The position numbers and the translations under genes were made by a program. Below the pieces are notes generated by a model. That model was not told the DNA's origin. It did no database searches and saw only the letters and a program-made list of their open reading frames with translations. Positions 2,836 through 43,900 of a stretch of DNA of 48,265 nt are shown piece after piece. The first letter of the stretch is position 1. Every line of letters starts with the position of its first letter. The DNA comes from Chthoniobacterales bacterium (GTDB lineage: Bacteria; Verrucomicrobiota; Verrucomicrobiia; Chthoniobacterales; JACTMZ01): assembly GCA_014879535.1 (NCBI GenBank), contig JACSRX010000034.1, positions 1 through 48,265 of the forward strand, read 5' to 3'.

Positions 2836-3855
2836 ATGGCTGAAACGACGGACATTGCAGGATTGCGTGCGGCCGGTCGCGACGGATGGGTGAAGGCGGC
2901 GGTTCCGGTGCTGGTGGACGCGGTTCTTGAAAAAAGCTCGCGGGACGGCAGGAGCTATCTCGAGGTGCAGCTTTGCGACGCGCGCGACCGGCTTGTCCTG
3001 AGGGTGTGGCCCGATGCGGCACTGTTCGATGCGGCGGCCTCGCTGGCTTCGGGGGCCTGCCTGCAATTGGAGGGGGAGTTCCACGTCCACCCGACCTTCG
3101 GGCTCGAGGCACGGGGGTGGAAATTCCGGGCGCTGGAAGGCGGGGAGAAAGAGGAGTTTTTGGCGGGTCCCGCCGACCTTCGGGCGCGGCAGCAGGAGGA
3201 TTATGCCCTCATTGAGGCGGCGGTGGCCGGGCTGAAGGATCCGCGCCTGCAGGCCTTGGGTGCCGCCTTTCTCGAAAAATGGGGGACGCGTTTCCGCCGG
3301 ACGGCGGCGGCGAGGTTTTTCCACCATGCCCGGCGCGGCGGGTTGGTCGAACACGTGGCACAAATGATGCGGTATGCCGGGGCCGTGTGCAGTGCGAATC
3401 CGAAGCTCAACCGCGACCTGCTCGTGTCGGGTGTGCTTTTCCACGATTGCGGAAAGCTCTGGGAAAATTCGGTGGAGGAGGGCGGTTTCAACATGCCCTT
3501 TGACGAGCGGGGCGAGCTGCTCGGCCACATCAACATCGGCATCGAACTGGTCAACTCGCTGTGGAAGACGCTGCCGCTCGAGGGCTGGGAGGATTTGACC
3601 CCGAAAAGCGAGGACGTGCGGCTGCATTTGCTGCACCTTGTGGCATCGCACCACGGCGAACTGCAGTTCGGATCGCCGATCCCGCCGAAAACTCCCGAGG
3701 CGATCGCTTTGCACTACATCGACAATCTCGACGCCAAGCTCGAGATGCTTGCGCGCGGATACGAGGGCGGGGCGTCCGTGGGGGAACGGATCTACGACAA
3801 GGTCAAGCCGCTCAATGTGCGGCCGGTCGAGCCGCTCCCCGCGCACGAGGCATGA
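2836..3855 (+). CDS. YhaM-type 3'-5' exoribonuclease / HD-domain protein with OB fold
   Basis: Resembles the YhaM family: an N-terminal OB-fold nucleic-acid-binding domain (about residues 15-105) followed by an HD metal-dependent phosphohydrolase domain (about 150-310). Visible metal ligands are H173 in GLVEHV, H203-D204 in LFHDCGK, H231 in GHINIG, the pair H272-H273 in ASHHGEL, and D296/D299 in YIDNLDAK. The 339-residue length fits YhaM-like enzymes, which trim RNA or single-stranded DNA from the 3' end. It overlaps the next gene by 4 bp (ATGA), showing translational coupling with a secreted protein of unrelated type. The exact substrate cannot be told from sequence. Confidence 0.82.
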   Translation: MAETTDIAGLRAAGRDGWVKAAVPVLVDAVLEKSSRDGRSYLEVQLCDARDRLVLRVWPDAALFDAAASLASGACLQLEGEFHVHPTFGLEARGWKFRALEGGEKEEFLAGPADLRARQQEDYALIEAAVAGLKDPRLQALGAAFLEKWGTRFRRTAAARFFHHARRGGLVEHVAQMMRYAGAVCSANPKLNRDLLVSGVLFHDCGKLWENSVEEGGFNMPFDERGELLGHINIGIELVNSLWKTLPLEGWEDLTPKSEDVRLHLLHLVASHHGELQFGSPIPPKTPEAIALHYIDNLDAKLEMLARGYEGGASVGERIYDKVKPLNVRPVEPLPAHEA

Positions 3856-5123
3856 AGATTCCGGCAGTTCTGATGTTTGTGCTGACCGGAGTCTGGTCCG
3901 CTGCGGCATCAACGCCGGAGCCGGCCGCGACACCGGAGCAAATCAACGGACTCGCCGGAGTGCCGCTTTTTTCCGGGGAGCACATGATCTGGGAGGAGGA
4001 CGCCGATGCCGTGGCCAAGCGCCTGAGGCTTCCGCGGGAATCGCTCACGACCAACGATGCCAGTTACCGGATTTATCCTCCGGAGGATGCAACAATCTTC
4101 GGACGCCGCGCCTATTCCGTGGCGATGAGCGCGCGGGGTGGCAAACCGACGGCCTTGAGTGTCATTTTCGCCAACAAAGGCGATTCGGTGGGGCAATTCG
4201 CTCCGTCCGCCCCGGGAAGGCTGCCGCCGCGGGTTCCTTCTTCCGTGCTGCGCGATTACAGGAAGGCGATCAGCGAGGATGAAAAGGCCATCACGGAGGC
4301 CCTGACTTCCCTCATCGGCGCACCCCGTGCCCAGAAGCTCAGCCAGGGTTCCAAGCTGCAGGAGAAGGCCTTGCGCTGGGATTGGAACGGTCATGCCATC
4401 CTTCTGGTGTCCGTGCGCGACGAGTATGCCGCGGTGCGCATCGTCCCGACCACCGAACTCGATGCGCCCGAGGGCGTGGAGCGAATCAAGGATCGTGATC
4501 TGAAGGGGCAGTTGGCGGAGCGCGTCGAGAGGCGTCCCAACGGGGATGTGATTCTGCGTGACCTTCCGATGGTGGACCAAGGACCCAAGGGATTCAGCGT
4601 GCCGGCGACGATGGAGAGGATGCTCCGCTACCTCGGAATCCCGGCAGACATGTATATGCTCGCAATGGCTGCCAACACGCAACCGGGGGGAGGCACCACG
4701 ATCCGCGATGTCTTGTGGGCGGTGTCCGATCCCGTCCGCAGGGCCGGACGCAAGGTTGTCCCGGAGACCGGACGGCCGGACATCAATCGCGTGGCGAAAT
4801 GGATCGAGTCCGGCTTGCCGATCCTCTGGGCCATCGCGACATCCGATGCGGTGGACAGCCGCATCAATGAGCACGCTGCAGCACGCACGAAGGTTGCGGA
4901 TTGGGAGGAGTGGTCGGCATCGCTGAAGCCAGCCCGGCAGAATGCGCGCAAGCTCGCGAGGGCGGGGGATCAGGGGCACGTCTGCCTGATCATCGGGTTC
5001 AACCGGGAGACGGGCGAGCTGGCTTTGTCCGACTCGTGGGGCCCCGGCTCGGCCGAGCGCTGGATCACCATCGAGGAGGCGGCCGCCATTTCGCAGGGAG
5101 CGATGGCCGTGGTGTCATGGTGA
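3852..5123 (+). CDS. Secreted C39-like peptidase-fold protein with Cys-to-Ser site
   Basis: A 423-residue exported protein. Residues 1-20 form a signal peptide ending near SAAAS. The C-terminal part (about 238-423) has the papain-like C39_2 layout: LPMVDQGPKGF, then the position normally held by the catalytic Cys, then VPATMERMLRYLGI; a His in GDQGHV (H376); and Asp394 in LSDSWG. The catalytic Cys position is Ser249 (codon AGC). The rest of the triad is kept, so it may be an inactive peptidase fold or use serine. Residues 20-235 match nothing I recognise. It overlaps the yhaM-like gene by 4 bp and the DUF362 gene by 7 bp, so the four genes appear to be one translationally coupled operon. Substrate unknown. 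Confidence 0.7.
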   Translation: MKIPAVLMFVLTGVWSAAASTPEPAATPEQINGLAGVPLFSGEHMIWEEDADAVAKRLRLPRESLTTNDASYRIYPPEDATIFGRRAYSVAMSARGGKPTALSVIFANKGDSVGQFAPSAPGRLPPRVPSSVLRDYRKAISEDEKAITEALTSLIGAPRAQKLSQGSKLQEKALRWDWNGHAILLVSVRDEYAAVRIVPTTELDAPEGVERIKDRDLKGQLAERVERRPNGDVILRDLPMVDQGPKGFSVPATMERMLRYLGIPADMYMLAMAANTQPGGGTTIRDVLWAVSDPVRRAGRKVVPETGRPDINRVAKWIESGLPILWAIATSDAVDSRINEHAAARTKVADWEEWSASLKPARQNARKLARAGDQGHVCLIIGFNRETGELALSDSWGPGSAERWITIEEAAAISQGAMAVVSW

Positions 5124-6229
5124 AGTCCTGTCTCTGTGGGTTGGCTGTGATTCTGGCGGCTGTGTCGCCGTTGGCTGCACAGGATGCGGAGCCTGCTCCG
5201 GCTGAAACTCCCGTGATTTCACCTCCCCTGATGCCACTTTCACAGCCTGCGGTCGAACCCCAATCGCGCGTCTTCTTCGCGCTCAACCCCGCTGTCGTCC
5301 AGAGCCACGGTGTCCGGTCCGCCATGGTGAAGCGGATGGTGGACTCGCTTGTCATGGCGGTGTCCGGACAGAGGGAAGTTGCCTCTGCATGGAAGACTTT
5401 TGTGCGTCCGCAGGATCGCGTCGGGATCAAGGTCTCGACGTCGGGTGCACCGGTTTCCAGCACCCACGCGGCGGTGGTGGAGGCCGTCGCGGATGGTCTT
5501 GTTGCGGCCGGGGTGGCACCCGGGCGCATCGTGATCTGGGACCGGCTCGAACGTGATGTCCGTTTGGCCGGCTACGAGGATTTGGCACGGCGATTCCGTG
5601 TCGTTTCCACCGAGAAAGCCGGCGGCTACTCGGAAAAGGATGTCGCGACGGCGGCGGTGATGGGAAAGCTGATCGCGGGCGACCGCAGTTTCGACCCGAA
5701 ACCCGGGGAGCAGATGAGCAGCAAGAGCCATCTTTCGGCCGTTCTGGTCAACGACGTGGACAAGGTCGTCCATGTGCCGTCATTGACGGACAGCGTTTTC
5801 TCCGGACTGCATGGCGCGCTGGCGGGGATGGTGATCGATAATTTGGACAACTGGAGGCGGTTGGCCCGTCCGCCGCACTTCGGGGATCCGTTTCTTCCGG
5901 AACTGTATTCCGATCCGCGGATCGGCGGAAAAGTCGTGCTGACGATCCTCGATGCCCTGCGTCCGCAATATGCCGGGGGTCCGTTTCCCGGCGCCCAATA
6001 TCAGGTGAACTACGGGGCGATCTTCGCCTCGCGAGACCCCGTGGCGCTGGATGCCACCGCGCTGCGGCTTCTCGACGATTTTCGCAAGGAGGCGCGCATG
6101 CCGCTCATGGCCGGCCGTGTCGGATGGCCGGAGTCGGCCGAGGTCCTCGGGCTCGGGTTCGCCTCGGAGAAGCACATCGAGCTTTTGCGCACCGGCCTCG
6201 AGAGCGAGGTGCGATTGAACGAGCCATGA
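5117..6229 (+). CDS. Secreted DUF362-domain protein
   Basis: Encodes 370 residues with a signal peptide (MVKSCLCGLAVILAAVSPLAAQ) and a proline-rich stretch before a DUF362-like domain. Typical features are VGIKVSTSG, the STHAAVVEAVADGLVAAGV helix, IVIWDR, a KVVHVPSLTDS segment, and FASRDPVALDATALRLLDD near the end. DUF362 proteins often come with iron-sulfur motifs; no CxxCxxC cluster motif is present here. The function of the family is not established. The start ATG at 5117 overlaps the stop of the C39-like gene, and its own stop overlaps the start of the squalene-synthase-like gene. The coupling suggests a shared process, perhaps at the cell envelope. Confidence 0.72.
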   Translation: MVKSCLCGLAVILAAVSPLAAQDAEPAPAETPVISPPLMPLSQPAVEPQSRVFFALNPAVVQSHGVRSAMVKRMVDSLVMAVSGQREVASAWKTFVRPQDRVGIKVSTSGAPVSSTHAAVVEAVADGLVAAGVAPGRIVIWDRLERDVRLAGYEDLARRFRVVSTEKAGGYSEKDVATAAVMGKLIAGDRSFDPKPGEQMSSKSHLSAVLVNDVDKVVHVPSLTDSVFSGLHGALAGMVIDNLDNWRRLARPPHFGDPFLPELYSDPRIGGKVVLTILDALRPQYAGGPFPGAQYQVNYGAIFASRDPVALDATALRLLDDFRKEARMPLMAGRVGWPESAEVLGLGFASEKHIELLRTGLESEVRLNEP

Positions 6230-7128
6230 CCGAAAACGAATTGCTGCGGTGTGTCTCGCGGTCGTTTTACCTGACCATCCGGCTGCTCCCGGGGGGCATG
6301 CGGGATGATGTGTCCCTGGCCTATCTGCTGGCGCGCGCCGCCGACACGGTGGCCGATTCCCCTGGGGGCGAACCGCAGAAGTGTCTTGGGGTGCTGAAGG
6401 CGGCCCGCGCCTCGCTCGGCCGTCCGGAGATCGCGGGCTATCGCGCGCAGGAATGGGCGGAACTCCAAAGGGATCGTGCCGACCGCGGATTGCTGGAAGC
6501 ATGGCCGGATCTCTGGCGCCGGATGGCAGCGCGCACCGGGCAGGACCCGGACCGCCTGCAGGTCGTGCTGGGGCACATTCTTGACGGGCAAATTTTCGAT
6601 CTGGAAAGGTTCGACGGGGACAGGCCGCCGCTCACGTCGGACGAACTTGAACGCTATATTTACCTCGTCGCCGGCAGCGTGGGGGAGTTTTGGACGGATC
6701 TCGGGTTTGCGCGCTTGGGGAACTTTTCCCCGGAGGCCCCGGAGACCATGCGTTCCATGGGGAGGCACTACGGGCAGGGCCTGCAACTCGTGAATATCCT
6801 GCGCGATCGCCGGATGGATGCCGCCATGGGACGCGTCTATGTCGATGCCGCCGATGTCGCGCATTGGAGCGGGCGTGCCCGGGCATGTTTGGAGGAGGGG
6901 GCGCGCTATTGCTCCGCCCTGGCCTCCGGGCGCGTGCGCTATGCGTGCCTGTTGCCCGCATTGCTCGGTTGGCGCACGCTGGCGTTGGTGGAGTCGCATC
7001 CTGCGGAGCTTCTCGCGCCGGCCAAGGTGCCGCGGGTCGAGGTGCGCCGTTGGATGTGGCGTGCGCTCGCTGCCTGGTGGTCGCCGGGAGCTGTCGCGCG
7101 GCTGGCCCGTGAGGCGTCGGGATTGTGA
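6226..7128 (+). CDS. Squalene/phytoene synthase family protein
   Basis: Predicted all-alpha trans-isoprenyl diphosphate synthase of the head-to-head condensing type (squalene, phytoene, or HpnC/HpnD-like). The 300 residues contain the first Asp-rich motif DTVAD at 40-44, the YIYLVAGSVGEFW segment at 145-156, and the second motif NILRDRRMD at 190-198. GRVYVD follows at 202-207. Both metal-binding motifs keep their Asp pairs, so it is probably active; the product cannot be read from sequence. No other hopanoid or carotenoid gene lies beside it in this window. Start ATG overlaps the DUF362 stop by 4 bp. Its stop codon lies within the Pho-box-like repeat that precedes pstS. Confidence 0.85.
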   Translation: MTENELLRCVSRSFYLTIRLLPGGMRDDVSLAYLLARAADTVADSPGGEPQKCLGVLKAARASLGRPEIAGYRAQEWAELQRDRADRGLLEAWPDLWRRMAARTGQDPDRLQVVLGHILDGQIFDLERFDGDRPPLTSDELERYIYLVAGSVGEFWTDLGFARLGNFSPEAPETMRSMGRHYGQGLQLVNILRDRRMDAAMGRVYVDAADVAHWSGRARACLEEGARYCSALASGRVRYACLLPALLGWRTLALVESHPAELLAPAKVPRVEVRRWMWRALAAWWSPGAVARLAREASGL

Positions 7129-29314: not shown

Positions 29315-32300
29315 TCAGCGGACGATCACCTGGTAAAAGCGGGTCGCCGTGGTGAGGGGGGCTGTTTGCGAACCGTCGTCGGTCCACTGGAGCATTCCGC
29401 CCGTGCCATGGAAGGTCGGCAGGAGACTCTGCCAGGAGGGCGTGCTGAGTTGCGGTTTCCACTGGATGCCGTAGGCGATGCCGGGCTGGCTCGGCCAGCT
29501 GACGACGAAGGCCGGTTGACCGCCGACGGTCTTGCGGGAGGCCTCGCTGACGCGGAAGCGGCTGCCGGGATCGACGGGGTTCGTTCCGGCGAGGTATTCC
29601 TGCAGGTTGTCCGCGCCATCACCGTCATCGTCGGCATTCGCATCGGTGACGCCCCAAGTTTGTTTCCATGAGTCGGTGATGCCGTCGCCCGCGCTGCTGC
29701 CGCCGAGGCTGACTGTGGACACGCCGCCGCCATGGGAGATTTTCACATGGGTGAAGCTGCTGGCGGCGTCATGGAACCATCCGGTTTCCGCCGCATCGAG
29801 GGCGGCCTTGTCCGCGACCTGCGGGAGGCGGATGCCATCGCGCTCGGCCCCGGCGGGGGAAGTGCCGAAGAACTTGAAGACAAATGTCCGCGCCGTCGAG
29901 TTGAACACGATTTTTGCAGTGCCGGCGCCCTTTTCCGCTTCGAATGTCGTGCCGTCATACATGGTGAAGCCCGAAGTGCCCGCGGGATAAACGCGAACTT
30001 CGAGATTTTCATCGGGGGTCGAAACCGCGGGGTTGTTGACGTATTCGGCGCGGCAGAGTGTCTGCGGGACGTTGAGGAGCATGGGAATGATGGCGCCCTC
30101 GCGGACGAAGACGGGGAACTTCGACGGGTCGGAGTTGGTCCAAGTCACGTTCTGGCCCCCGTTGTGAAGGGCGCCCGTCCAGAAATCACGCCACGATCCG
30201 CCGGGGAGATAGACGTTGCGTGATGTGGTGTTGAGGGCGACGACCGGAGCGACCACGAATTCGTCGCCGAAATAATAGGTGTGCTTCACGCCGAAGGTGT
30301 TCGTGTCGGTCTGGTTCATCAGCACGAGCGGACGCATGATGGGGACGCCGGTGTCGGTGGATTTCTTGGCGTAGGAGTAGATGTAAGGGAAGAGCTGGTG
30401 GTGCAGCCCGGCATAGGTGCGGTAATTGTTCAGCGCAGCGGCCGTGTAGCCCCAGGGGTATTGGCGGAGGTCGTTGGCGCTGATCTGCCGGTGGAGCTGC
30501 ATCAGCGGGGAAAAGGCCCCGAACTGGGTCCACCGGATGAAAAGGTCGGCCGGATTCGACTCGTAGACGTTGCTGCCGCTGAGGTAACCGCCGATGTCGT
30601 GACCCCAGATGGAGTAACCGCTCATCGCGGCGGAGAGGCCGGAGACGATCACGCTCTGCATGCCGTTGTCGGCGCCGAAGTTGGGAAGGTTGTCTCCGCC
30701 CCAACCTGCCGGAAAGGCCTGGGTGCCGGTGAAGCCGCCGCGCGCGAAGAGGATTCCGTCATCGCCGAGCACGTTCCAGACCGTGCGGTGGTATTCGACG
30801 CAGTAGCCGTTGCGCATCTCGACGCCTGTGCGGCCGTCGGAATACGAGGCCGTGAGCGGGATATACATGTTGCTGCCGTTGGAGGTCTCGCCGTCGTCGG
30901 TCTTGAATCCGCCGATGACCGGCTCGGTGCCCCCCGCGACGGATTCGTCGATGAGCCGTTGCAATTGCGCGGTGAACCATGCGCGCGCGTCGGCGCTGGT
31001 GAAGTCCACGGGGCTTCCGTTGCCTTTCCACCACGGCACGACGAGGGGTGCGCCGCCCGGGGACTGGCGGACGAAATGGCCGTTGGCGGCACCCTCGGCG
31101 TAGTTTTGAGCCTGACCGGTGTTCTGGCCGGGCACGTTCTGTCCGCCGACGCTGTCGGTGACGGAATTGATGTTCACGAACGGCGTCATCCAGCAGATGA
31201 CCTTGAAGCCGCGTTCGCGCAGGAAGGCCATCATGTCGCCGATGCTGGCGAAACCGGGGTAATTCACGCCCTCGTAGGTTCCGGACGCGGCCCACTGCGA
31301 GGTGTTCCAAAAGAAATCATTGTAGCCGATCTCCCAAGGGGAATCGAAGACGACAACCGAGGCGGGGATGCCTTCCTGAAGATAGCGGTTCACGAAGTAA
31401 CGCACCTCGCCGCCGGTGCGCCAGATGTCGGAGGAAATCCATGTGCCGAAGGCCCATTGGGGAGGGAGCGGCGGACGCCCGACATACCCGGTGAAGCGGG
31501 ACAGGGCATCCGTGAGTTTCGGCCCCCAGACGATGTTGAAGGCGAGCGTGCGGTAAAGGTTCTGGATGAAATAGCGGTCGGACGCGGTCTTGCGCATGTC
31601 GAACCAGCTCTCGGCGGAGGAATCGAGATGGAATCCGTAGCCGCGGGTGCTCAGGAACCACGGCACGACCTTGTAGGAACGGTCGCCCTTCGTGCCGGGT
31701 TCGTCCCAAGTGAGCATGTTGACGCGGTTGCCTGCCTGGTCGATGGAGTTGAACTTTTCGCCGAATCCATAGAAATGCTCGGACGCATCCGACGGTGAGC
31801 TGATGATCGTCTGGGTGGGCACGATGCCGTTCCAGTCCGCGACCTCGAAGCGCGCGATGCCGTCGCCGGTGAAAGTGAGGCGCGACGTGATGTTGGTCCC
31901 GTTGAGCGACTGGACCCATTCGAGCCCGCCAGGGATTTCGGTCGAGGAAAGCACCGGGCCCGGGATGTGCCCCCGGTCGTTGATCTTGATGGTGGGCGGA
32001 GGGAACACGACCTCGGTGGCCATGGGCGTGCCCGCGAGATCGGGGCCGGCAACGGTGAAGTGTCCGCTGTTTTCATAAACACGGAGCCGATGCGCCCCCG
32101 ATTCGTGGGAGACGGAATTGCCTGCAGGCGCAAGGGGCCACTGGACGACGAAGGCATGGGGCGACGCCTGCGCCACGGATTCAATCTCCGAGGCCGAACT
32201 CGCCGAGTCGCTGCCGTGGAGGAACGTGGGGATGTGGTCGGTGTAGGGGATGCGGAGGTAGTATTCGATGCGATCCCCGGGTTGGAGTCCCGAAGTCGGA

Positions 32301-33136
32301 ATCGGAGCGCTGTAGTATTTGTTGTTGGCTGCCTCGCTGTGGAAGGTCATGGCTGCGGAGGACCAACCCGGGGTGCCGGCCTTGCGGTAATAGACCGTGC
32401 TGCCGGTCTGCGTCTGGTTGCCGGGGTTGCCTCCTGCTCCCTGGAACTGGTTGCCGCTGTAGACCGTGACCGAGGTGGGAGACTGGACGATGACCGGTGT
32501 GCGCATGGCGGTGACGCCGGCGGGTTCCGCATTGTTGGGAATGTGCCACGCATTGCCGGTGGTGGCGGCGAATCCCGCGTTGCGCGTGAGCAGGATGCGG
32601 TCGAGTTTCAGGCCGTCCTCGCGCATCCAAACGCGCAGGGTGCGTGTCCCGGGAGTGACGGCGATCGTGGCGGATGTGCCGGTCGTGTGATTGCGATTGC
32701 TCCACTGCCAGGTGTTTGTGGTGGTGAGCGTCACCGGAACCGCAGTGCCATTGTCGATGGCGACCCACACGGAGTCGTCGGCGTCGCTGGGGGCCTGTCC
32801 GCGGATCCAGATCTGGAAGGTTCCGCTGTTTGTGAATGTGACGGGGTATTGAAGCTCGGGGCTGTCGGAACCTGCGGCGAGGTTTGCACCGTTGTTCGGT
32901 TCGGCTTCCATGTAACCGGCTCCGCTGAACCCCGGCGTGGCGGTCATGACGGTCCAGGAATGGTCCGACCTCGGGGAGTTGTTGGTCGTGAAACCCTCCG
33001 ACTCCACGACGATGGTGCCGTTGACCTCCGAGGACTGCTGGGCGTGCAACGCATGGATCGGCCACAGCAGCCCGGATGCCGCCGCGAGAAACGACGGAGC
33101 GAAGTGGCGACGGAATGGGAGGGGAGAACGGACCAT
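29315..33136 (-). CDS. Secreted GH31 alpha-glucosidase/alpha-xylosidase-type enzyme
   Basis: 1273-residue exported glycoside hydrolase of family 31, likely acting on alpha-linked gluco-oligosaccharides. Signal peptide 1-33 (ending ALHAQ), a beta-sandwich carbohydrate-binding-like domain (about 38-190), an E-set-like region (215-335), then the GH31 N-terminal beta domain and TIM barrel (about 340-1010). The nucleophile Asp747 lies in GGFKTDDGE, the acid/base Asp815 in GWGGDN, and the sugar-binding WGHDIGGY at 844-851. A TSP3-type Ca2+ motif DADDDGDGADNLQEYLAG (about 1165-1185) precedes a C-terminal module ending RFYQVIVR. It is transcribed away from the LacI-type gene, 62 bp apart, which probably controls it. 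Confidence 0.92.
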   Translation of the reverse strand: MVRSPLPFRRHFAPSFLAAASGLLWPIHALHAQQSSEVNGTIVVESEGFTTNNSPRSDHSWTVMTATPGFSGAGYMEAEPNNGANLAAGSDSPELQYPVTFTNSGTFQIWIRGQAPSDADDSVWVAIDNGTAVPVTLTTTNTWQWSNRNHTTGTSATIAVTPGTRTLRVWMREDGLKLDRILLTRNAGFAATTGNAWHIPNNAEPAGVTAMRTPVIVQSPTSVTVYSGNQFQGAGGNPGNQTQTGSTVYYRKAGTPGWSSAAMTFHSEAANNKYYSAPIPTSGLQPGDRIEYYLRIPYTDHIPTFLHGSDSASSASEIESVAQASPHAFVVQWPLAPAGNSVSHESGAHRLRVYENSGHFTVAGPDLAGTPMATEVVFPPPTIKINDRGHIPGPVLSSTEIPGGLEWVQSLNGTNITSRLTFTGDGIARFEVADWNGIVPTQTIISSPSDASEHFYGFGEKFNSIDQAGNRVNMLTWDEPGTKGDRSYKVVPWFLSTRGYGFHLDSSAESWFDMRKTASDRYFIQNLYRTLAFNIVWGPKLTDALSRFTGYVGRPPLPPQWAFGTWISSDIWRTGGEVRYFVNRYLQEGIPASVVVFDSPWEIGYNDFFWNTSQWAASGTYEGVNYPGFASIGDMMAFLRERGFKVICWMTPFVNINSVTDSVGGQNVPGQNTGQAQNYAEGAANGHFVRQSPGGAPLVVPWWKGNGSPVDFTSADARAWFTAQLQRLIDESVAGGTEPVIGGFKTDDGETSNGSNMYIPLTASYSDGRTGVEMRNGYCVEYHRTVWNVLGDDGILFARGGFTGTQAFPAGWGGDNLPNFGADNGMQSVIVSGLSAAMSGYSIWGHDIGGYLSGSNVYESNPADLFIRWTQFGAFSPLMQLHRQISANDLRQYPWGYTAAALNNYRTYAGLHHQLFPYIYSYAKKSTDTGVPIMRPLVLMNQTDTNTFGVKHTYYFGDEFVVAPVVALNTTSRNVYLPGGSWRDFWTGALHNGGQNVTWTNSDPSKFPVFVREGAIIPMLLNVPQTLCRAEYVNNPAVSTPDENLEVRVYPAGTSGFTMYDGTTFEAEKGAGTAKIVFNSTARTFVFKFFGTSPAGAERDGIRLPQVADKAALDAAETGWFHDAASSFTHVKISHGGGVSTVSLGGSSAGDGITDSWKQTWGVTDANADDDGDGADNLQEYLAGTNPVDPGSRFRVSEASRKTVGGQPAFVVSWPSQPGIAYGIQWKPQLSTPSWQSLLPTFHGTGGMLQWTDDGSQTAPLTTATRFYQVIVR

Positions 33137-33198: not shown

Positions 33199-34314
33199 AT
33201 GGGGCAACCACGCGTCACCATGCAGGATATCGCCCGGGCTGCGGGGGTTTCCAAGGCGACGGTGTCGTTTGCCCTGCGGAATGATGCGCGGTTGCGTCCG
33301 GAGACCTGCCGGCGCATCCGGGAACTTGCCGAGAAGATGGGTTATCGTCCGGATCCTGTCGTCTCGCAGCTTCTGGCGCATTTGCGGGCCGCCCGCGTGC
33401 CGAAATTCCAGTCCACGCTGGCGCTCTTGAATTGCTCTCCGTTTGCGGATGTGTTCGACATGGTCCGCACCTATGGCGAATGGCGGGAGGGGGCCCGGGC
33501 ACAGGCCTCGGAGCTCGGCTACGGGGTCGATGAGTTCTGGATCGGGGAGGAGAACCTGTCACCCGGAAAGCTGGAGCGCATTCTTCACGCCCGCGGGATA
33601 CGAGGGGTGTTGGTGGCACCCCTGTTCAACGAGGGAATCCTGCCTTCGGCTTATGCGTCGATCTGGAACAGCTTCGCCTGTGTGGTTCTCGGCAAGCCCG
33701 CGGTGAATCCGCCCATGCACAGCGCCTGCAACGACCAGTTCTCCACGGCGTTCCAAGCTGTCCTGCAGGCTGCCCGCTTGGGCTGCCGTCGCCCGGCCCT
33801 TGTTCTGGCGCCGGGAGTGGACCGGAATGTCGGGTTCCGGTTTTCCGGGGGGTATCGTGCGGCCCTTGAGCTCTGCCCCGACATGGACGATGCCGGGGTT
33901 TTCCCGTTCGATTGGAACGAGCGGAGCCGGTTTGTGAGATGGTTCAAGCGCGGGACACCGGATGTCCTCATCGGGGCGCATGCCGAGGTGCTGGATTGGA
34001 TGCAGGGCATGGGACTCCGCGTGCCGGAGGATGCGGGCCTGATCAATCTCGACAAAAATTCCGGGATGTCGGGGTGGGCGGGCATCAACCAGCACCAACC
34101 CTTCGTGGGAGCCGCCGGGGTGAATCTTCTTGTCGGGCGACTGCACCGCAATGAAACGGGCATTCCGGAGGCACCCTATTGTGCGGTCATTCCCGGGACC
34201 TGGGAGGATGGGGACACCATGCGCTGTCTGCCGCCGCCTCTCATCCGGGGCGGGCGCCGTCGTCCAAGACAAAAGGCGGCAGCCTATTCCGGCCAGACGG
34301 TGTTGACGCGGTAG
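33199..34314 (+). CDS. LacI-family transcriptional regulator
   Basis: 371 residues from ATG 33199 (MGQPRVTMQDIARAAGVSK). The N-terminal helix-turn-helix VTMQDIARAAGVSKATVSFALRN is canonical LacI. The hinge region reads GYRPDPVVSQLLAHLRA rather than the usual YxPN..ARsL, a variant frequent in this bacterial group. Residues 65-345 form the periplasmic-binding-protein-like sensor domain. Placed between a GH31 gene and two other secreted hydrolase genes, it probably senses an alpha-glucan oligosaccharide. The 3' end overlaps the convergent phosphatase-like gene by 31 bp, and the basic C-terminal tail (GGRRRPRQK...) is probably not part of the fold. Confidence 0.93.
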   Translation: MGQPRVTMQDIARAAGVSKATVSFALRNDARLRPETCRRIRELAEKMGYRPDPVVSQLLAHLRAARVPKFQSTLALLNCSPFADVFDMVRTYGEWREGARAQASELGYGVDEFWIGEENLSPGKLERILHARGIRGVLVAPLFNEGILPSAYASIWNSFACVVLGKPAVNPPMHSACNDQFSTAFQAVLQAARLGCRRPALVLAPGVDRNVGFRFSGGYRAALELCPDMDDAGVFPFDWNERSRFVRWFKRGTPDVLIGAHAEVLDWMQGMGLRVPEDAGLINLDKNSGMSGWAGINQHQPFVGAAGVNLLVGRLHRNETGIPEAPYCAVIPGTWEDGDTMRCLPPPLIRGGRRRPRQKAAAYSGQTVLTR

Positions 34315-37300
34315 AAGGCGTCCGGGAGCGCGGGGGAGTTGGTATCCTTGAAGAAAAGTTCTCCGGAACCCGATGGCGCGACGATGGGCTCCGCGGTGAT
34401 GCGTTGCCAGTCAATGCTGGTGAGGCTGGGAGTGCGCCAGAGGTGGTAGCTGTGGCCGGGGATGGCAGGCCAGCGCAGGGTGAAAGCGCCCTCGTCGAGG
34501 GGATCGTGGACACCCTTGGCACGGAACAGACGGTTGGGATCGAGGCGGTCGAAGGTGCCGGTTCCCAGCGAGTCTCGCAGTGCAGCCACGGGGATGGCCA
34601 GAAATTCCCCCGGCTCGATGTTGCCATTGCCATTGCCTTCCGGGGACTGGGAAGCCAGGGATCCCCCGTCGGTGGTGAGGAAGGCGGCTGATGCGATGTA
34701 GATCGTCGAGGGCACATCACCGAAGGCTTCCACGAGATCGATGACCCCTTCGATCTTGTTGCCGCCGTCCGGTGCGCGAAAGGCAAGTGCAGAAGCCGGC
34801 GCGTTGAACCATGAGATGTAGGGCGACGAGCTTTCGGCCGCCAAGTAGGGTGCCGAGGAGGGCGCGGCTGTCAGTCCCGCCTTGGTCCACGGGGCTGGCG
34901 TCGTGGCGGATGGCAGAAGTTGGTCGGTGACGAAGATCATGTGGTCGCTGCCTCCGCCGGCAGGGGTCCATGTGGCGAGGTAGAGACTCGTGCCCCGCAG
35001 CGCGGCGTGGAAGGTCATGCCCGGGAGCGAAACCAGGTAACCGGCGCTGTCCGGAAGACCGTCGAGTTCATAGGGGACCGTGGGCTGCGTGGTCCCGCCC
35101 ATGACCAGAGCGGAGGCCGCGGACGTTGCCGTGATGTTCCTGGCCGCAACCGTGTAGGAATACGTCGAGGAAGGGTCGAGGCCCGAGTCGGCAAAGGAAT
35201 TCGTGGTGACGGTGCCCACCAAGTCGCCATTGCGATAGACAAGGTATTCCGAGGCATGGTCCACGGGGTCCCACGTGATGCGGATGCTGTTGGGGCCGAG
35301 ACCCTCCGTCGACACCTGTTGGGGAACCTCCGGTGCAGGCGGGGGGACCGGAGTGACGGCGTCGATGGTGTTTGAAGCCCCGGAGGTTCCGGAGCGGTTG
35401 CGGGCAAAAACCTGATAGGAAACCTCGGTTTCGGGCTCCAAGCCCGTGTCGGCATAGACGGTCGATGTGGTGACCGCGATCTGGGAGCCATTGCGAAACA
35501 CGAGATACTCGTGCGCGTTCGCAACAGGCTGCCACGAGAAGGTGGCGAACGTGGTGGCAAGCGTCTCGAGATTGAGGTTGGCCGGCGGGGCGGGCACGCC
35601 GTCGATGGTCTGGGAGAATTCGTCGAAGATGATGCCGTTGCTGTCGATGGCCCGGACGGTGCGGCCGTCCGGACGGATCGTGATGGCGAAAATGTGGCGC
35701 CGGCTTTCGGCCTTTTCCAGATACCATGTGGATGCGGGGTCCTTCGGGACGCGCAACTCGACACCCCATGTCCCGTCGCCGATGTAGGTGATGCCCTTCG
35801 GGTCGATCCCGCTGCCCAGAATCGGCGGTGTCCTCTTGAACGTGTGGTCGTGGTGATCCAACACAAGCTGGACACCCGCCTGCTCATAGAGGGGGGACCA
35901 GTTCTGCCGGATGAAAGCGTGGCGCGAGTCGTTGATGTCGCGGTTGGAGGGGTAGGCGGCCAAGTGACCGGCGGGGATCAGGTGGGGAACGTGCCGGCGC
36001 TCATTCAGCGCCTGCTGAAGCCATGTCGTCTGGGCACCGGCCATGGGGGAGAGATGGTCCGTATCGGTCAGGATGAAGGACAGGTAGTTTCCGATGTCCA
36101 AGGCTCGGTAGCTCTCCTGCCCGGGTATGCCGAAGATGGGCATGTATTGCGCCGCGACGCGGTTCTTCCATGCTTCCCCGGGCTCGTAAGACGGGTTGCT
36201 GGAAGAGTTGTGGTAGCCGCCCTTCATCTCGTGGTTGCCCAAGGTGAGAATGATGGGCACCAGTCGTCCGTTCGGACCGACGACCTTCGCGGCGGCATCG
36301 AGGAAGCGATACCATTTCCAGAAATTGGGTTGGTAGTCGTCGTTGTAGGCCAGATCCCCGCCGAGGATGACGAAGGCCGGGTCGAGTGCGCCGACAAGGG
36401 ATGCCATCTGCACGGCGCTGCTGCTTACGTCGCAGTCGCCGGAATCGATGAAGGTGAGCGGTTGATCGAGTGTCGCAGGCAGCGTCTTGAAGCGGTTGGT
36501 CCTGCCCTCGTAGGCGTCCCCGTCGAGTTGGAATTCATACTCGGTGTTCGGTGTCAACCCGGTGATCTCGGCCTTGTGGATCAGCCGCTCTGTGGTCGGG
36601 AAGAGATCGGTCACCTGCGCCGTGAACTCCTGCCATGTCTCGCCGCCGACCGGACGGTAACGCAGCTTGTTGTGGGCGGGGTTGTAGTTGTGCCATTGCA
36701 CGGCCATGGTCGTGGTGGGGTCGTGATACCATGTGAGGAAGATCGCGGGGGGTTTGCAGATTTTCCCGTCCTCGCGGATGTAGAGCCAGCGGTTGTCGCC
36801 GCTCTCATAGTTGCTGTTCGGGCGGAATTTGAAGGCATGCCAGCCCGGGGTCAGGTTGGCATCGCGGATGTCCATCTGCCAGACGCCGCCGACCTTTGTG
36901 AGAGGATAGCTGGTGACCCATCCGTCGTTGTCCGAGCGGAAGGTGACCGACGTGGCCGAGGCATGGTAGAAGCGCAGGGTGTGGGAAGGCTCGAGGCCCG
37001 GCATGCGGCGCTCGCTGAGGGTCAGCGGGGCATTGCCGGGGGCCGCGCTGTAGGTGAAATCATTGAAATAGAGGTTGTTCACCGGGTCGGTGGAGTCCGT
37101 GTTGGTGATGTAAAAGCGCACGTCGGCCATCGTGCCGGACGGGATGTTCGCCGTGCCGCTGACCGTTGCGGTGATGCCCCCGCTGCGCTGGATGGTCCAG
37201 TCGAGCGTGTTCTCGCGCTGGGTGAAGGTGAAGGTGAAGACGGTGTTGGTATCGTAACCGCCGAACTGTTGACCGTTGTCCATCACGCTGTTGTTCTGAA

Positions 37301-37838
37301 CGTAGTAACCGCTGGTGCTGTTTTCCTGACCGACCTTGAAGAGCCAGATATTGCTGCCGCTGGCATTGCGCAGGTTGAACCCCTTGTTGCCGTTGCGGAA
37401 ATTGACCGCGACCTTGAAAGTGATGGTGTCTCCGACGGTCAGGGTCGGCTTGTAGAAGCGCTTGACCGCTCCGGCATAGGCATTGGAGCCCGGAGGCCAT
37501 GCAAAAAGTGCGAAGCATTTGCCGTCGGTGTTGATGTCGGCGCCACCGAGTGCAGAGTTGCCGATGTAGCGGCCAGCGAGTCCCCCGTTGCCCGAGGAAC
37601 TCTCGAGTGTCCAGTTGGCAGCTGTCGCGGTCCCCCGATGGCTGCTGCTGACCCACTGGGCGGTGTTGGCGTAGTTCGCTGCGACATCGTTCGCGACGAC
37701 CTGCCCGACGGAGGCGGCACAGAGGGCAACGATTGCATAGAGAGCATTGCAACGCGGAGCGCTGCGGAAGGGGGGGCGCATGAGCGGGACCGTAACATAA
37801 ATTCTACGGGACGCAAACGGGGAGAAGCGGATTCTCAT
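34284..37838 (-). CDS. Secreted purple-acid-phosphatase-like protein with CBM-like and Fn3 domains
   Basis: 1184 residues from ATG 37838; a later ATG at 37781 (residue 20, MRPPFRSAPRC) gives a cleaner signal peptide, cut near VVAND. Domains: a beta-sandwich region (50-265), a small starch-binding-like or E-set domain (285-360), a PAP-type N-terminal domain (363-452), a metallophosphatase domain (460-735), two Fn3 domains (about 750-830 and 838-915), an unassigned region (920-1115) and a C-terminal module ending FYRVNTVWPE. Metal ligands visible: D465-G-D468, D495/Y498 in GGDLAYND, N535-H536 in GNHE, H625, and HHDHTFKR at 662-669. Substrate unknown: it may remove phosphate from phosphorylated glucans or other esters. 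Convergent with the LacI gene, overlapping 31 bp. Confidence 0.85.
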   Translation of the reverse strand: MRIRFSPFASRRIYVTVPLMRPPFRSAPRCNALYAIVALCAASVGQVVANDVAANYANTAQWVSSSHRGTATAANWTLESSSGNGGLAGRYIGNSALGGADINTDGKCFALFAWPPGSNAYAGAVKRFYKPTLTVGDTITFKVAVNFRNGNKGFNLRNASGSNIWLFKVGQENSTSGYYVQNNSVMDNGQQFGGYDTNTVFTFTFTQRENTLDWTIQRSGGITATVSGTANIPSGTMADVRFYITNTDSTDPVNNLYFNDFTYSAAPGNAPLTLSERRMPGLEPSHTLRFYHASATSVTFRSDNDGWVTSYPLTKVGGVWQMDIRDANLTPGWHAFKFRPNSNYESGDNRWLYIREDGKICKPPAIFLTWYHDPTTTMAVQWHNYNPAHNKLRYRPVGGETWQEFTAQVTDLFPTTERLIHKAEITGLTPNTEYEFQLDGDAYEGRTNRFKTLPATLDQPLTFIDSGDCDVSSSAVQMASLVGALDPAFVILGGDLAYNDDYQPNFWKWYRFLDAAAKVVGPNGRLVPIILTLGNHEMKGGYHNSSSNPSYEPGEAWKNRVAAQYMPIFGIPGQESYRALDIGNYLSFILTDTDHLSPMAGAQTTWLQQALNERRHVPHLIPAGHLAAYPSNRDINDSRHAFIRQNWSPLYEQAGVQLVLDHHDHTFKRTPPILGSGIDPKGITYIGDGTWGVELRVPKDPASTWYLEKAESRRHIFAITIRPDGRTVRAIDSNGIIFDEFSQTIDGVPAPPANLNLETLATTFATFSWQPVANAHEYLVFRNGSQIAVTTSTVYADTGLEPETEVSYQVFARNRSGTSGASNTIDAVTPVPPPAPEVPQQVSTEGLGPNSIRITWDPVDHASEYLVYRNGDLVGTVTTNSFADSGLDPSSTYSYTVAARNITATSAASALVMGGTTQPTVPYELDGLPDSAGYLVSLPGMTFHAALRGTSLYLATWTPAGGGSDHMIFVTDQLLPSATTPAPWTKAGLTAAPSSAPYLAAESSSPYISWFNAPASALAFRAPDGGNKIEGVIDLVEAFGDVPSTIYIASAAFLTTDGGSLASQSPEGNGNGNIEPGEFLAIPVAALRDSLGTGTFDRLDPNRLFRAKGVHDPLDEGAFTLRWPAIPGHSYHLWRTPSLTSIDWQRITAEPIVAPSGSGELFFKDTNSPALPDAFYRVNTVWPE
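37792..37807 (-). promoter_or_regulatory. Promoter/operator-like motif at the phosphatase-like gene
   Basis: On the minus strand, TAGAAT (plus 37801-37806) can serve as a -10 box and runs directly into TTATGTTAC. The segment GTAGAATTTATGTTAC agrees in 11 of 15 positions with the sequence at the start of the giant amylase gene (TAACATAAATGTTAC). It lies between the two possible starts of the gene, which favours the shorter form with the start at 37781. Role inferred. Confidence 0.35.
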
Positions 37839-37958: not shown

Positions 37959-40900
37959 CTATGGTTGAGGCAGCCGGACCTCGACGCGGTAGAAGCGCTG
38001 GTCGGCGGCGTTGGGATGGCCGCCTGTGGTCTCGCCGGTGTCGGTCCATGTCATGGAGTTGCCCGTGCCGATCATGTAGGACGAGGCAGGCTGCCAAGAT
38101 CCGGTCGGATTCGAGGTGTAAACCACGCGGTATTCCCGGTCTTTGATCGTCGGGAAGGTGACTTGGACACCTCCACCGCCTGCCGCGACATTCATGAAGG
38201 GACGATGGCTCGCCTTGTCGGGATCGAGACCGAGGATGAATTTCTCGATGTTGCTGATGCCATCATTGGAGGGTTCGCCCCCGGCACCCTGGGTTCCATT
38301 GGCGTTGTTCGGATCGAGGCCATTCTCCTCCTCCCACCAGTCGGGGAGTCCGTCCTCGTCGGAATCGACCGTGAGGGTCGGGCCGGTTTCGAGGCCGAGG
38401 CCGATGGTGAGTCCGTTGCCGCCGAAGACCTCCATCTGCTGGGTGTGCGCCTGGTTGCGCATGTTGATCGTGTCGAAGTTCACGGTCGGGGCGGCGTCGT
38501 CAATGGCGTTGGCCTGGAGGCTGCCGCTGTAACCGGGGCCGTTGTAGCGCACATAGGCGCGGACGGTGTCCGGCTCCGCCGTGTTGAGGACATGGGCGAG
38601 GGAGCCGTTGGCCGAAATGCCGCCGAGGTGCATCTGGCCGTTCAGGAACAAGTCGTAGAGGTTCGGAGTCAGGCCGAAGCGCACATAGAGCGTCTCGATG
38701 CTTGCAAGATCGTAGTGGGCCTTGAGCTGCGAACTGAGGGCGTCGAGTGTGACCGTCTTGGCCACCTTGCCGTCGGCGCTCGTGAACTTCCATCCGGTGA
38801 GGCCGCCGCCCGCCGAGGTGACGGCGTAGAGGTTGTTGACGTAGTTTGTGCCGGTCGAGCCGCTCTGGGCATACCAGTCCTTGAAGGCCGAGGTGCGGTG
38901 CGCGTCGGGCGACGTGCCGCTGACATTGCCCGCGCCCTCCTGCTCGGTGTCGCTGCTGGCAAAACTCAGGAAGTTGCCGACGGCCTGGTAGATCTCGCCG
39001 GTTCCGAGGTGGCGCACCCAAGCCCCGACCAGGCGGCCGCCGAGGGACTCGAAGGCGGCGAAGACGCGGTCGTTGTAGAGCAGGTATTCGTCCTCGCCGT
39101 CGAGGTCGATGTCCTTGGACACGGCCTGCGGTGCGGTGTAGTAGGCACCTCCTTGGGCGGCGATGCCCCAAGTTTCGACCTCCTTGTAAACCGCGGCGAA
39201 GCGCGCCTGCGACTGGCTGATCCGGGAGAAGTCGGTGAGCGTGTTGGTGCTCGTGTCGGGGTTGAGGTAGGCCCCGGTGCTGAATTTCCGGAGATCCGAA
39301 TTCGACTGGTTGTGGAAGGCGGTGATGAACGTCGCGGAATGCAGCACGGACCGGGCGAGTTTGCCGTGCGTCGAGTTCGTGCTGATCATGGATGTCAGGG
39401 TGTCCCAGCTGTCCTTGACGATGCCCGAGGTCGTCTGCTGGCCGAAGGCCTTCGGCAGCGGGACATTCGGGCGGACGCTGAAGACCTTGTTGAGGAGCCC
39501 TTCCTCGCGGTTCGCCTGGCCATTATACCAGTTGTTGTAATTCTCCTGTGAGGCCCAGTCGATGTAGTCGTGGGCGACGCGGGCGAGTGTGGGATTGCCG
39601 CGGTTGATCGAGCCCCAGGCGTCGCCTGTTCCGTTGGGGGGCACCGACAGGTCGATTTCGTTGTTGGCGATCTGGTCGGGCGTGACGACCTCGATCCACG
39701 GCCTGTTGGCGATCCAGCGGACGTTGCGGTCGTAGGCCGTGGCCTGCGGGGCGGAGGTGAAGTCGCTCCAGTCGTGGTAGAGCACGACAACCTGATCCTG
39801 CTGCCATGAGCGTGAGCGCTGGTTGAGGAGCTGGCGGAGCTGAACGCTCAGGCCGTTGTCCGTGTTCTGGTAACGATAGGTGTTGAGCTGGTCGTTGATG
39901 ACGAAGCATTTCACACCGTTGATCTGGTTGAGTCGGTAGCCCTCGTCGCTGAGGGCGGTGTCCCGGCCGAACCACTTCCAGAGGTGGCGGGATTGGTCGA
40001 TGAAGGTGAAGCCGTAGCCGAGGCTTCCGACCTGCCCGAGGATGGTGTTGTCGGAGACGCGCTCCGGCGTCCAGAACACCGTCGTTGAGGGTTGTGCGTA
40101 AACCGAGGAAAGCACCTCGTTGGCCAGGCTCACGTTGTTCGCGTTATACTGGCCCGAGAAGTAAGGGAGGATGTGGTCGGAGAAAGTCCCCGCCAGCAGG
40201 TCGATCTTGCCCTGCTCCATGCGGTCCTTGAGGCGCGCATTGAGCGCGGGCCCATCCTTGAGCGGTTTGTTGGCGGCAGGATCGGCCTTCGCCCATTGGA
40301 TGGCGCTCGCGATGGTCGGCGTGAGGTGCATCGTGAGGCGGGTGTCGAACGCCTCATGGGCATCGACAGGGCGGTAATAGCCCGCGCCATTGCCGGCGTC
40401 GAGGTAGCTCTGGATGAAGCTTCCGGGACGGATGGCCTGGTTGCCATGGATGAGCATGACCAGCTTGGCGCGGCGCCCGCGATCGTTGTCAGCCTGCATG
40501 CCGACCCAGGAATTGAGCCTGCTGGCCACGGGATCGTTGATCAATTCCTGCCGCTTGCCGCCGGCATTGTCGCTGCCCCGGAAGTCGTTGGCGATGCCGT
40601 TGTCGCGCAGGGAATCGGTGATGTCGGGGCCGGGCAGATCTCCGACGCCGACGGGGGAGTTTCCGGTGCCGTCCTTCGTGGTGAAGACCTGATATTTGAG
40701 CGTGGCGGGATCGCCCGCCCAGCCCGCATCGAGGAGTGCTTGGCGGCTGATGCTGAACTCCACGGCGTCGAGCTCGTGGTTGTAATAGACCGCCCCGAAG
40801 CCGTTCGGGACGACATTGCGGGTTTCAACACCGTATTGCGGATCTGAGAGGCTCTGGAACCCGGTCGTGTTCACTGCCGGGTTGGTGTCCACGTAGACGC

Positions 40901-43900
40901 GGCCGGCAAGGTTGGCATTGCCGTAGGCCGCCACGATCAGGTTCCACTTCATCGTGGTGAGGCAGTCCACCTGGTCGGGGAGCAGCATTTCGCCGACGCC
41001 CGACGGCCCCGCGTTGCCCACGTTGACGGCGACGTAGATGTCGAGGTTGCCCTGTTCGGCATTGGCCACCAGATTGTGGAGGTCCACGCGGAAGTAGAAC
41101 TTGTCATCCCCGTCGTTGGCTGCGGCCCCGCCGTCGCGTGCGTAGAAGGCGACAATGTCGCGGGATGTGTCGAAGCCGTCCCAGAGTTGGTAAACGTCCC
41201 CGCTCTGGTAGTTGCCGCCGTTGCCGTCGCAGGCATCGAGGGCGATCACATCGTCGATGGTCCAGTCGGTGAATTCCCCGGCGTTGGTGACGGAGCCGAC
41301 GGTGATCTGCTGGTTGACCGGTTTCGGACCGATGGTGATTCCGCCCACGGGCGTCCCGGATCCGGTGTTGGAAACCGACGGGTCGGTGGCGTTGAGGTAT
41401 TCCTGCAGGTTGGTCACCCCGTCATTGTCCGGATCGCCGTTGGCGCCGTTCTTCGGATCGCCTGCGCCTCCGGTGCGGAAGCTGTAGGTGCCGTTGTCGA
41501 GCGGATCGAGTCCGTAGCGCGTCTCCCATCCGTCGGGAAGCCCGTCGCCGTCGGTGTCGGCCTTGAGCGGGTCGGTCTCGAGGAGGATGAGCTTCGGCCA
41601 GCCGCCGGTCTGCTGGGATCCGCCGCCGCTTGCCGAGGGGGCGTAGGCCGCGAAGAGGGCCGTGTAGTTGACGGCGCGCGATGTCGGCCCGCCATGGCGG
41701 AATTCGGGATGCTCACTCAACAGGAGCGGCGTCCGAGAGTTGTTCTCGTGGAGCAGTTCCATGTCGGTGAGGCCGTTGAAATTGACGTCCTCCCCATAAC
41801 CATCGAGGAGTCCGTCGCCATCGCTGTCGCCTGCGGTCGGGGAGGATTCGTTCCATGTCTCGCCCGGATCAATCTTGTTGTTCGGCCAGTTGCGGGTGAG
41901 TGCAGGTTGTGCGGCAGGCGCGATCGAGTCGCCGTCGCCGTCCGCCCAGCCGTTGCGGTTGGCGTCTTCAAGGCCGTCGAGGAGTCCGTCGCCATCCGTA
42001 TCGGGGTTGTTGGGATCGGTCGTGCTGCCGCCGCGGAGTTCGGCGCGGCGCCAGCTTGTGCCGGCGGGATCGACATTGGGCACCTTGTTGTAGTTGTCGA
42101 GGGTGTTGTAGAACGGCGGGTCGAGGTCGCCGATGAAGTTGGGATAGCCGTCACCATCGGTGTCGGTGGCGGTGAGGGTATCCGTGCCGGGGGTGCGCCA
42201 GCCGAGTTCGAGGCCGTCCGGGAGGCCGTCGCCGTCGGTGTCGGGGCTGAGCGGGAGCGTCTTGCCGCTGGCTTGGACGATGTGCACATCGCCGTTGTTC
42301 CAACTGTCGCTGCCGGACGTCGGATACGAGGCGGCGGTGGCCTCGGTGGCATCCGTCAGTCCGTCGTCATCATCATCCGCATCGCTTCCGTTCTCCGCAA
42401 CGAGCTGGCGGAAGATCACGACGGTGTCTCGGAGCGCCGAGGCCTCGGTGGTGGCCGTGTTGCCGTCGGTATCGGCATTGGCCCGGATCTGGTAGGTGCC
42501 TTCGGCGATGTCCGACCACAGGAAGCTCCACAGCTTGGAGTCGCCGTCGACAATCGGGGCTCCCTGCGGGGTGATGGTGCCCGACCCCTGCGTGAAGACG
42601 AGGTTGAGATTCTGGACCGACGTGCCGGTTTCGATCTGGATGGTGTATTCGCGTTCGGAGGGAAGCGGGCTCACCTTCTGCGGGAGGATGATGGGATTCA
42701 CATTTCCCGCGCCTTGGTAGGGTGGTGGTGTGATGAAGTCCACGCGGGCGGCGAGGGCACCCGGGTTGGCCTTGACGAGCCGTTGGGCGGTGAGGGTCGA
42801 GAAGGGGGCTGGCCGGGTGTGGACGACGTTGATCTGGTGCAGGAAATTGGGGTCGCCGTTGTAGAGGTTCGGCAGTTCGAAGGCCAACTCGTGGTAGTCG
42901 TTGGTGGCGTTCCAGATGATCCAGTAGGCCGAGGACGATTGAACGATGCCGTCCAAGCTGATCGAAAAGCGGTTGATCAGGTCCTGCTCATTGAGGCCGC
43001 TCGCGAGGCCCTTGCTGAATTGGACCTTGATGACATAGCCCGCACCGACGACATCGCCGTCGGCTTGGGGCCAGCGCACGAACAGGCGCGCGGCATCGCC
43101 CTGGGTGTTGACGGTGCGTGTGAGCGTGCGGAAATGTCCTGCAGAGTCCCCGAGGTTGTTGTCCGCCGATGAACTCAGTTCCTTGAGGCGCACGTCGATG
43201 GTGGCGCTTCCGGTGGCGGGGATGTTGATGTAGTTGAAACGCCATTCCTTGGGATAGTTGCTGGAGACGCCGATGGTCGGGGTGACATCCGATGCCTTGA
43301 CCCATGCGCCGTTGCCGTTGTTCGAACCGGTGGCGGTGTCGTCATTGTTGGCATCGCTGTCGGTGATGCGATACCAGACCTCGGAGGTGGTGTGGTCCGT
43401 GCGCACGACCACGCCGTAGGAATTTCCGCCGAGCGTGGCGCCGTTGCCCGAGGGGAACTTGATTTCGCCCTCGGGGGCTTTGGTGTCGTAGTAGAAAGTC
43501 TGGACGAACGTGTTGTAGATCGCCGAGCGATTGTCGCGCTTGAGGAAGGGTCGCGTGGTGAGGACGTGGAACCCCTCGTCAAGGCCGGTGAATTCCGGGC
43601 CGTAGTCATTGTGGCGGCGCACTTTGGCCGCGGTGGCGTCGAAATTGGCGATGTCGAAAATCGTCTCCATCTTGCGCTTGACCGAGATGTCCGTGCCGTT
43701 GTTGGGGAAGACGCTCGGGGCGTTCTGCGTGTAAACGCCGATCTTGTAGCGAAGCACGGTGCCGGCTGCGGAAGGCGGCAGCGTCGCTTTCCACCAGACG
43801 GGCGTGCCGGTGCCGTCCGCGGCGCCATTGTGGTCGAAGGTCATCTCGGCGACCTGCGTGGTTCCCTTGCCGACACCCGCGACGCCTTCGGGCCATGTGG

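Follow-up and report, generated by a model that had tools for sequence, protein, structure and literature searches.

A lone cysteine-to-serine change at the nucleophile position of a C39-like peptidase homolog in a Chthoniobacterales genome

The window, the whole 48,265-nucleotide stretch of Chthoniobacterales DNA that was analysed, encodes a C39-like protein having serine at residue 249, where its relatives have the catalytic cysteine. The reading favored here, to which an even chance is given, is an ordinary exported C39-like peptidase that in one genome has recently lost its nucleophile, and with it catalysis, by a single-base substitution (C249S). This would correspond to a T-to-A change, from TGC to AGC, in the line of descent of the window genome. 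By analogy with known systems, the Ser249 protein should still fold and bind a peptide substrate in the groove beside Gln243, His376 and Asp394, with cleavage that would be very slow at most. If the serine is real and fixed, the protein offers, together with its close cysteine-bearing relatives, a clean one-residue natural test of the passage from a papain-type enzyme to a pseudo-enzyme, and also of whether serine can serve at all in a papain-type site. For the present, the case consists of a single unconfirmed base in a draft genome, and its main value is as a caution against deducing a lineage of serine proteases from one sequence.

Family and fold of the C39-like protein

The protein aligns over its full length, including the N-terminal region, with an orthologous family of Verrucomicrobiota, having 35-61% identity over nearly the full length to most of the 42 orthologs. 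The named relatives come from Verrucomicrobiota, Kiritimatiellales or Pontiella genomes, and one contig is titled Paceibacterota. The family, which is found in Verrucomicrobiota and allied bacteria, probably comprises exported peptidases of the C39-like type (clan CA, papain fold), with peptides as the presumed substrate; in the window protein, a hydrophobic N-terminus suggests export. The positions of the gene, its active-site codons and the neighboring genes are given in Table 1. A literature search on C39-like proteins of Verrucomicrobiota returned no papers.

Table 1. Coordinates of the C39-like gene, its features and its neighbors in the window
Feature	Position	Strand	Basis	Remarks
YhaM-like OB + HD 3'-5' exoribonuclease	2836..3855	+	domain matches	upstream neighbor
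C39-like (papain-fold) secreted peptidase homolog	3852..5123	+	ORF	423 aa
Predicted N-terminal signal peptide of the C39-like protein	aa 1-20	+	inferred from sequence	
N-terminal alpha/beta region	3909..4484	+	alignment + model	approximately aa 20-211; conserved in the family; without a Pfam name
Gln243	4578..4580	+	alignment	oxyanion-hole residue, invariant in the family
Ser249	4596..4598	+	alignment, motif survey	codon AGC at the nucleophile position; TGC/TGT in relatives
His376	4977..4979	+	alignment + model	triad base, on strand 374-384
Asp394	5031..5033	+	alignment + model	third triad residue, directly after strand 389-393
DUF362 protein	5117..6229	+	domain match	downstream neighbor; start overlaps the C39-like stop
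Squalene/phytoene synthase family protein (SQS)	6217..7128	+	domain match	

The domain PF13529 (Peptidase_C39_2) matches 43 of the 47 aligned family members (best E-value 8.3e-14), and the window protein resembles it in the catalytic domain, in the His-Asp region and in the glutamine ahead of the nucleophile. It differs from PF13529 in the serine at the nucleophile position, in an extra conserved N-terminal region and in a match of 18.4 bits, under the curated cut-off of 24, which begins just past Ser249. Among three genus relatives, the orthologs of G010 (29.8) and G004 (28.6) each score above the cut-off in one stretch, and the third scores 21.5 in one stretch, reaching 25 only with its neighbors in frame.

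The AlphaFold2 model, built on the 47-sequence alignment, has a mean pLDDT of 90.4 and a pTM of 0.88. In the model, Ser249 is the first residue of the helix 249-260, opening the central helix as the nucleophile of clan CA does, and the triad histidine and aspartate lie on and just past the following strands (Table 1), which is the papain topology; the cysteine nucleophile of the clan is the element missing from the window protein. The best structural matches to the modeled catalytic domain in a Foldseek comparison with the PDB were the pseudomurein endoisopeptidase PeiR, prostaphopain B (staphopain), the phytochelatin synthase Alr0975 and xylellain, all of them cysteine enzymes of the clan CA type. 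Identity to these is only 10-15%, and as they have no counterpart of the N-terminal region of the window protein, the query-normalised TM-scores reach just 0.25-0.30. A sequence search of the PDB gave marginal matches only, among them xylellain 3ois (E-value 0.83), whose GH...NSWG region falls opposite His376. The ortholog L022 has asparagine instead of the triad Asp394 and retains the cysteine, as in papain.

The nucleophile segment reads KGFSVPAT (aa 246-253), where the alignment gives KG(Y/F)CxPAT as the family consensus, in agreement with the KGYC-x-PAT of the original prediction, within the motif QGxKG(Y/F)C that the window protein breaks at its last position. The original prediction had described this segment from the DNA alone, together with the retention of His376 and Asp394, and both are confirmed, with Gln243 also present; likewise, its proposal of a C39-like fold with the nucleophile cysteine replaced by serine is supported. 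The sole cysteine of the window protein is C378, in an H-x-C arrangement two residues past the catalytic histidine. A nucleophile moved to C378 was considered and rejected, since the 36 of 47 relatives having C378 all also keep C249; this coexistence also disposes of the possibility, raised at the outset, that the true cysteine lies elsewhere in the alignment.

Distribution of serine at position 249

Column 249 is cysteine in all 42 orthologs as well as in the five more distant homologs, against which the serine of the window protein is no chance signal. A survey for the motif Q-G-x-K-G-(Y/F)-any-x-P-A, through searches at the phylum, order and class level covering up to ~786 distinct genomes, gave 185 distinct sites, including 179 with cysteine, one with serine (the window protein) and five others. 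These sites are motif matches, with family membership assigned by the motif, which is specific, nearly all having KG(Y/F)C. The five other non-cysteine sites were rejected as family members, being chance matches: three contain stop codons, the one in G171 lies opposite a TPR-like ORF, and the one in G587 is in a 14-codon frame. Within the genus, the gene is present in nine of the ten other genomes, with cysteine in every one of the nine; six of these relatives, 57-61% identical and having the same gene order, use a TGY codon.

A serine specific to the lineage is therefore rejected at the genus, order, class and phylum level, as Ser249 is found in one genome only, and with one serine against 179 cysteines there is no sharing of serine among related species of the kind that would mark an established serine-type or pseudo-peptidase subfamily. 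The original prediction had proposed an alignment with relatives as the check on whether the serine is lineage-specific, and neither a serine-using variant nor an established peptide-binding pseudo-enzyme, which its two readings imply, is supported by the outcome. It had also named cysteine in close relatives combined with a sequencing error as what would overturn it; close relatives do keep the cysteine, and the error is weighed below.

State of the gene and explanations of the serine

In a leave-one-out test with 40 orthologs, C249S is the only departure of the window protein at 37 columns that are invariant in the other orthologs. The NG86 dN/dS of the window gene is 0.17-0.26 against its six closest relatives, with 0.18 and 0.23 for two pairs that do not include the window genome, all these values being rough because of high dS. 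In the tree of the C39-like gene of seven genomes, the branch of the window genome is 0.45 and that of G003 is 0.44. A pseudogene is rejected by the intact frame, the kept invariant columns and the dN/dS; the last two, together with the model, also argue against a gene long dead. If constraint had been lifted over much of the branch, more invariant positions would be expected to have changed, so C249S would be recent, or did not relax constraint, or is not real; its probable recency is read from how well the remainder of the gene is conserved, as opposed to any dating of the event. No second copy of the family was found in the source genome, so that a harmless loss would have no obvious backup to explain it; the only other PF13529 protein there is small and different and keeps its cysteine. 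Another point against a recent loss of catalysis is the full retention of Gln243, His376, Asp394 and the surrounding motif, which would also fit a working serine enzyme.

After recent catalytic loss, as the most likely, the explanations rank as an error in the consensus, then a fixed pseudo-enzyme and then a serine enzyme. An error of consensus, assembly or strain mixture, under which position 4596 would really be T and the gene would encode a normal cysteine peptidase, is considered unlikely. One base separates AGC from the TGC of the nearest relatives, only one genome shows serine, the rest of the C39-like gene looks functional, and the source assembly is a draft of 97 contigs; however, of 869 rpoB columns that do not vary among eight relatives, the window genome differs at just 4, each time conservatively, leaving the assembly without signs of being rich in errors, and the operon genes are open. 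Typical consensus error rates are ~1e-5 to 1e-4 per base, and given such rates an error falling on the Ser249 codon is improbable a priori. Placed behind it, and also doubtful, is a pseudo-peptidase comparable to SERA5 or the C39-like domain of HlyB, its serine form having become fixed in the species and retained for some non-catalytic task such as the binding or sequestration of a peptide; the continuing purifying selection over the whole C39-like protein speaks for it. SERA5 of Plasmodium, the most thoroughly studied such case and an essential papain-like protein with a non-enzymatic role, likewise has a natural serine at the position of the catalytic cysteine of a papain fold, and its activity was not detected until the serine was changed to cysteine (PMC4671257). 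However, it belongs to a eukaryotic C1-type family with no sequence kinship to the window protein beyond the fold, and its serine form is that of a whole subfamily across Plasmodium species (PMC3058004), compared with one genome here. The C39-like domains of HlyB and other RTX exporters have the C39 fold, have lost the nucleophile, are non-catalytic, as the window protein probably is, and bind cargo; they differ in having tyrosine, leucine or asparagine for the cysteine, in their fusion to an ABC transporter and, in HlyB, in a flipped histidine (PMC8277102). Furthermore, pseudo-enzymes often drift at further catalytic positions, whereas the rest of the active site is unchanged here, the serine is common to no related species examined, and the Ser249 protein has no known binding partner or dedicated neighbor.

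The same intact active site bears on the last explanation, in which Ser249, His376 and Asp394 form a working serine triad in a C39-like fold, as a peptidase or hydrolase, a Cys-His-Asp triad having been converted by one base change. The other triad and oxyanion residues are all kept, and an aspartate as the third residue suits a serine triad. In C1-family proteins, serine-for-cysteine switches are reported to have limited effect on activity in congopain and EnCL and to have brought a new activity to silicateins; on the other hand, in papain-type triads it is mostly the N-delta of the histidine that faces the nucleophile, an arrangement in which serine nucleophiles hardly ever occur (PMC9825947). 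No companion change is seen in the window protein at invariant columns near the active site, the motif survey found no other species with the serine, and a working serine triad is considered very improbable.

Neighborhood and other genes in the window

The C39-like gene lies in the order dnaJ, yhaM-like, C39-like, DUF362 and SQS, all in one direction, the last four having overlapping ends (the ATG of the C39-like ORF overlaps the stop codon of the upstream gene), and serS adjoins in the opposite orientation. Seven genomes of the genus have this order, and none of the more distant loci does; among the seven, one contig ends before serS, and in another dnaJ and yhaM are further apart. The tight coupling with exonuclease, DUF362 and isoprenoid synthase genes that had been noticed originally is real; however, it is confined to this seven-genome clade and is no guide to function. 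A functional coupling to YhaM, DUF362 and SQS was rejected, as the neighborhood occurs in seven genomes only, with other contexts elsewhere, and an order conserved only in this clade says little about function. Outside the genus clade, seven loci (L031, L032, L035 and L087-L090) have another common neighborhood of the C39-like gene, with ORFs resembling a LarC-type protein and an arginine decarboxylase.

The yhaM-like gene has a branch of 0.36 in the window genome, compared with at most 0.09 in the other genus members, and this copy is ~75% identical to all genus copies, which are themselves 88-90% identical to that of G004; the gene may be evolving faster here, or a foreign copy may have taken its place. 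Elsewhere in the window, an ORF of 2847 aa (37959-46502, minus strand) matches alpha-amylase close to the N-terminus and GH57 at aa 2091-2280, and also contains a TSP3 repeat; it is unusual for a single, very long protein to combine two types of glycoside hydrolase. Additionally, a GH31 glycosidase whose N-terminal domain is of the GH115_C type is encoded at 29315-33136 (minus strand), adjoining a purple-acid-phosphatase/fn3 protein at 34284-37838.
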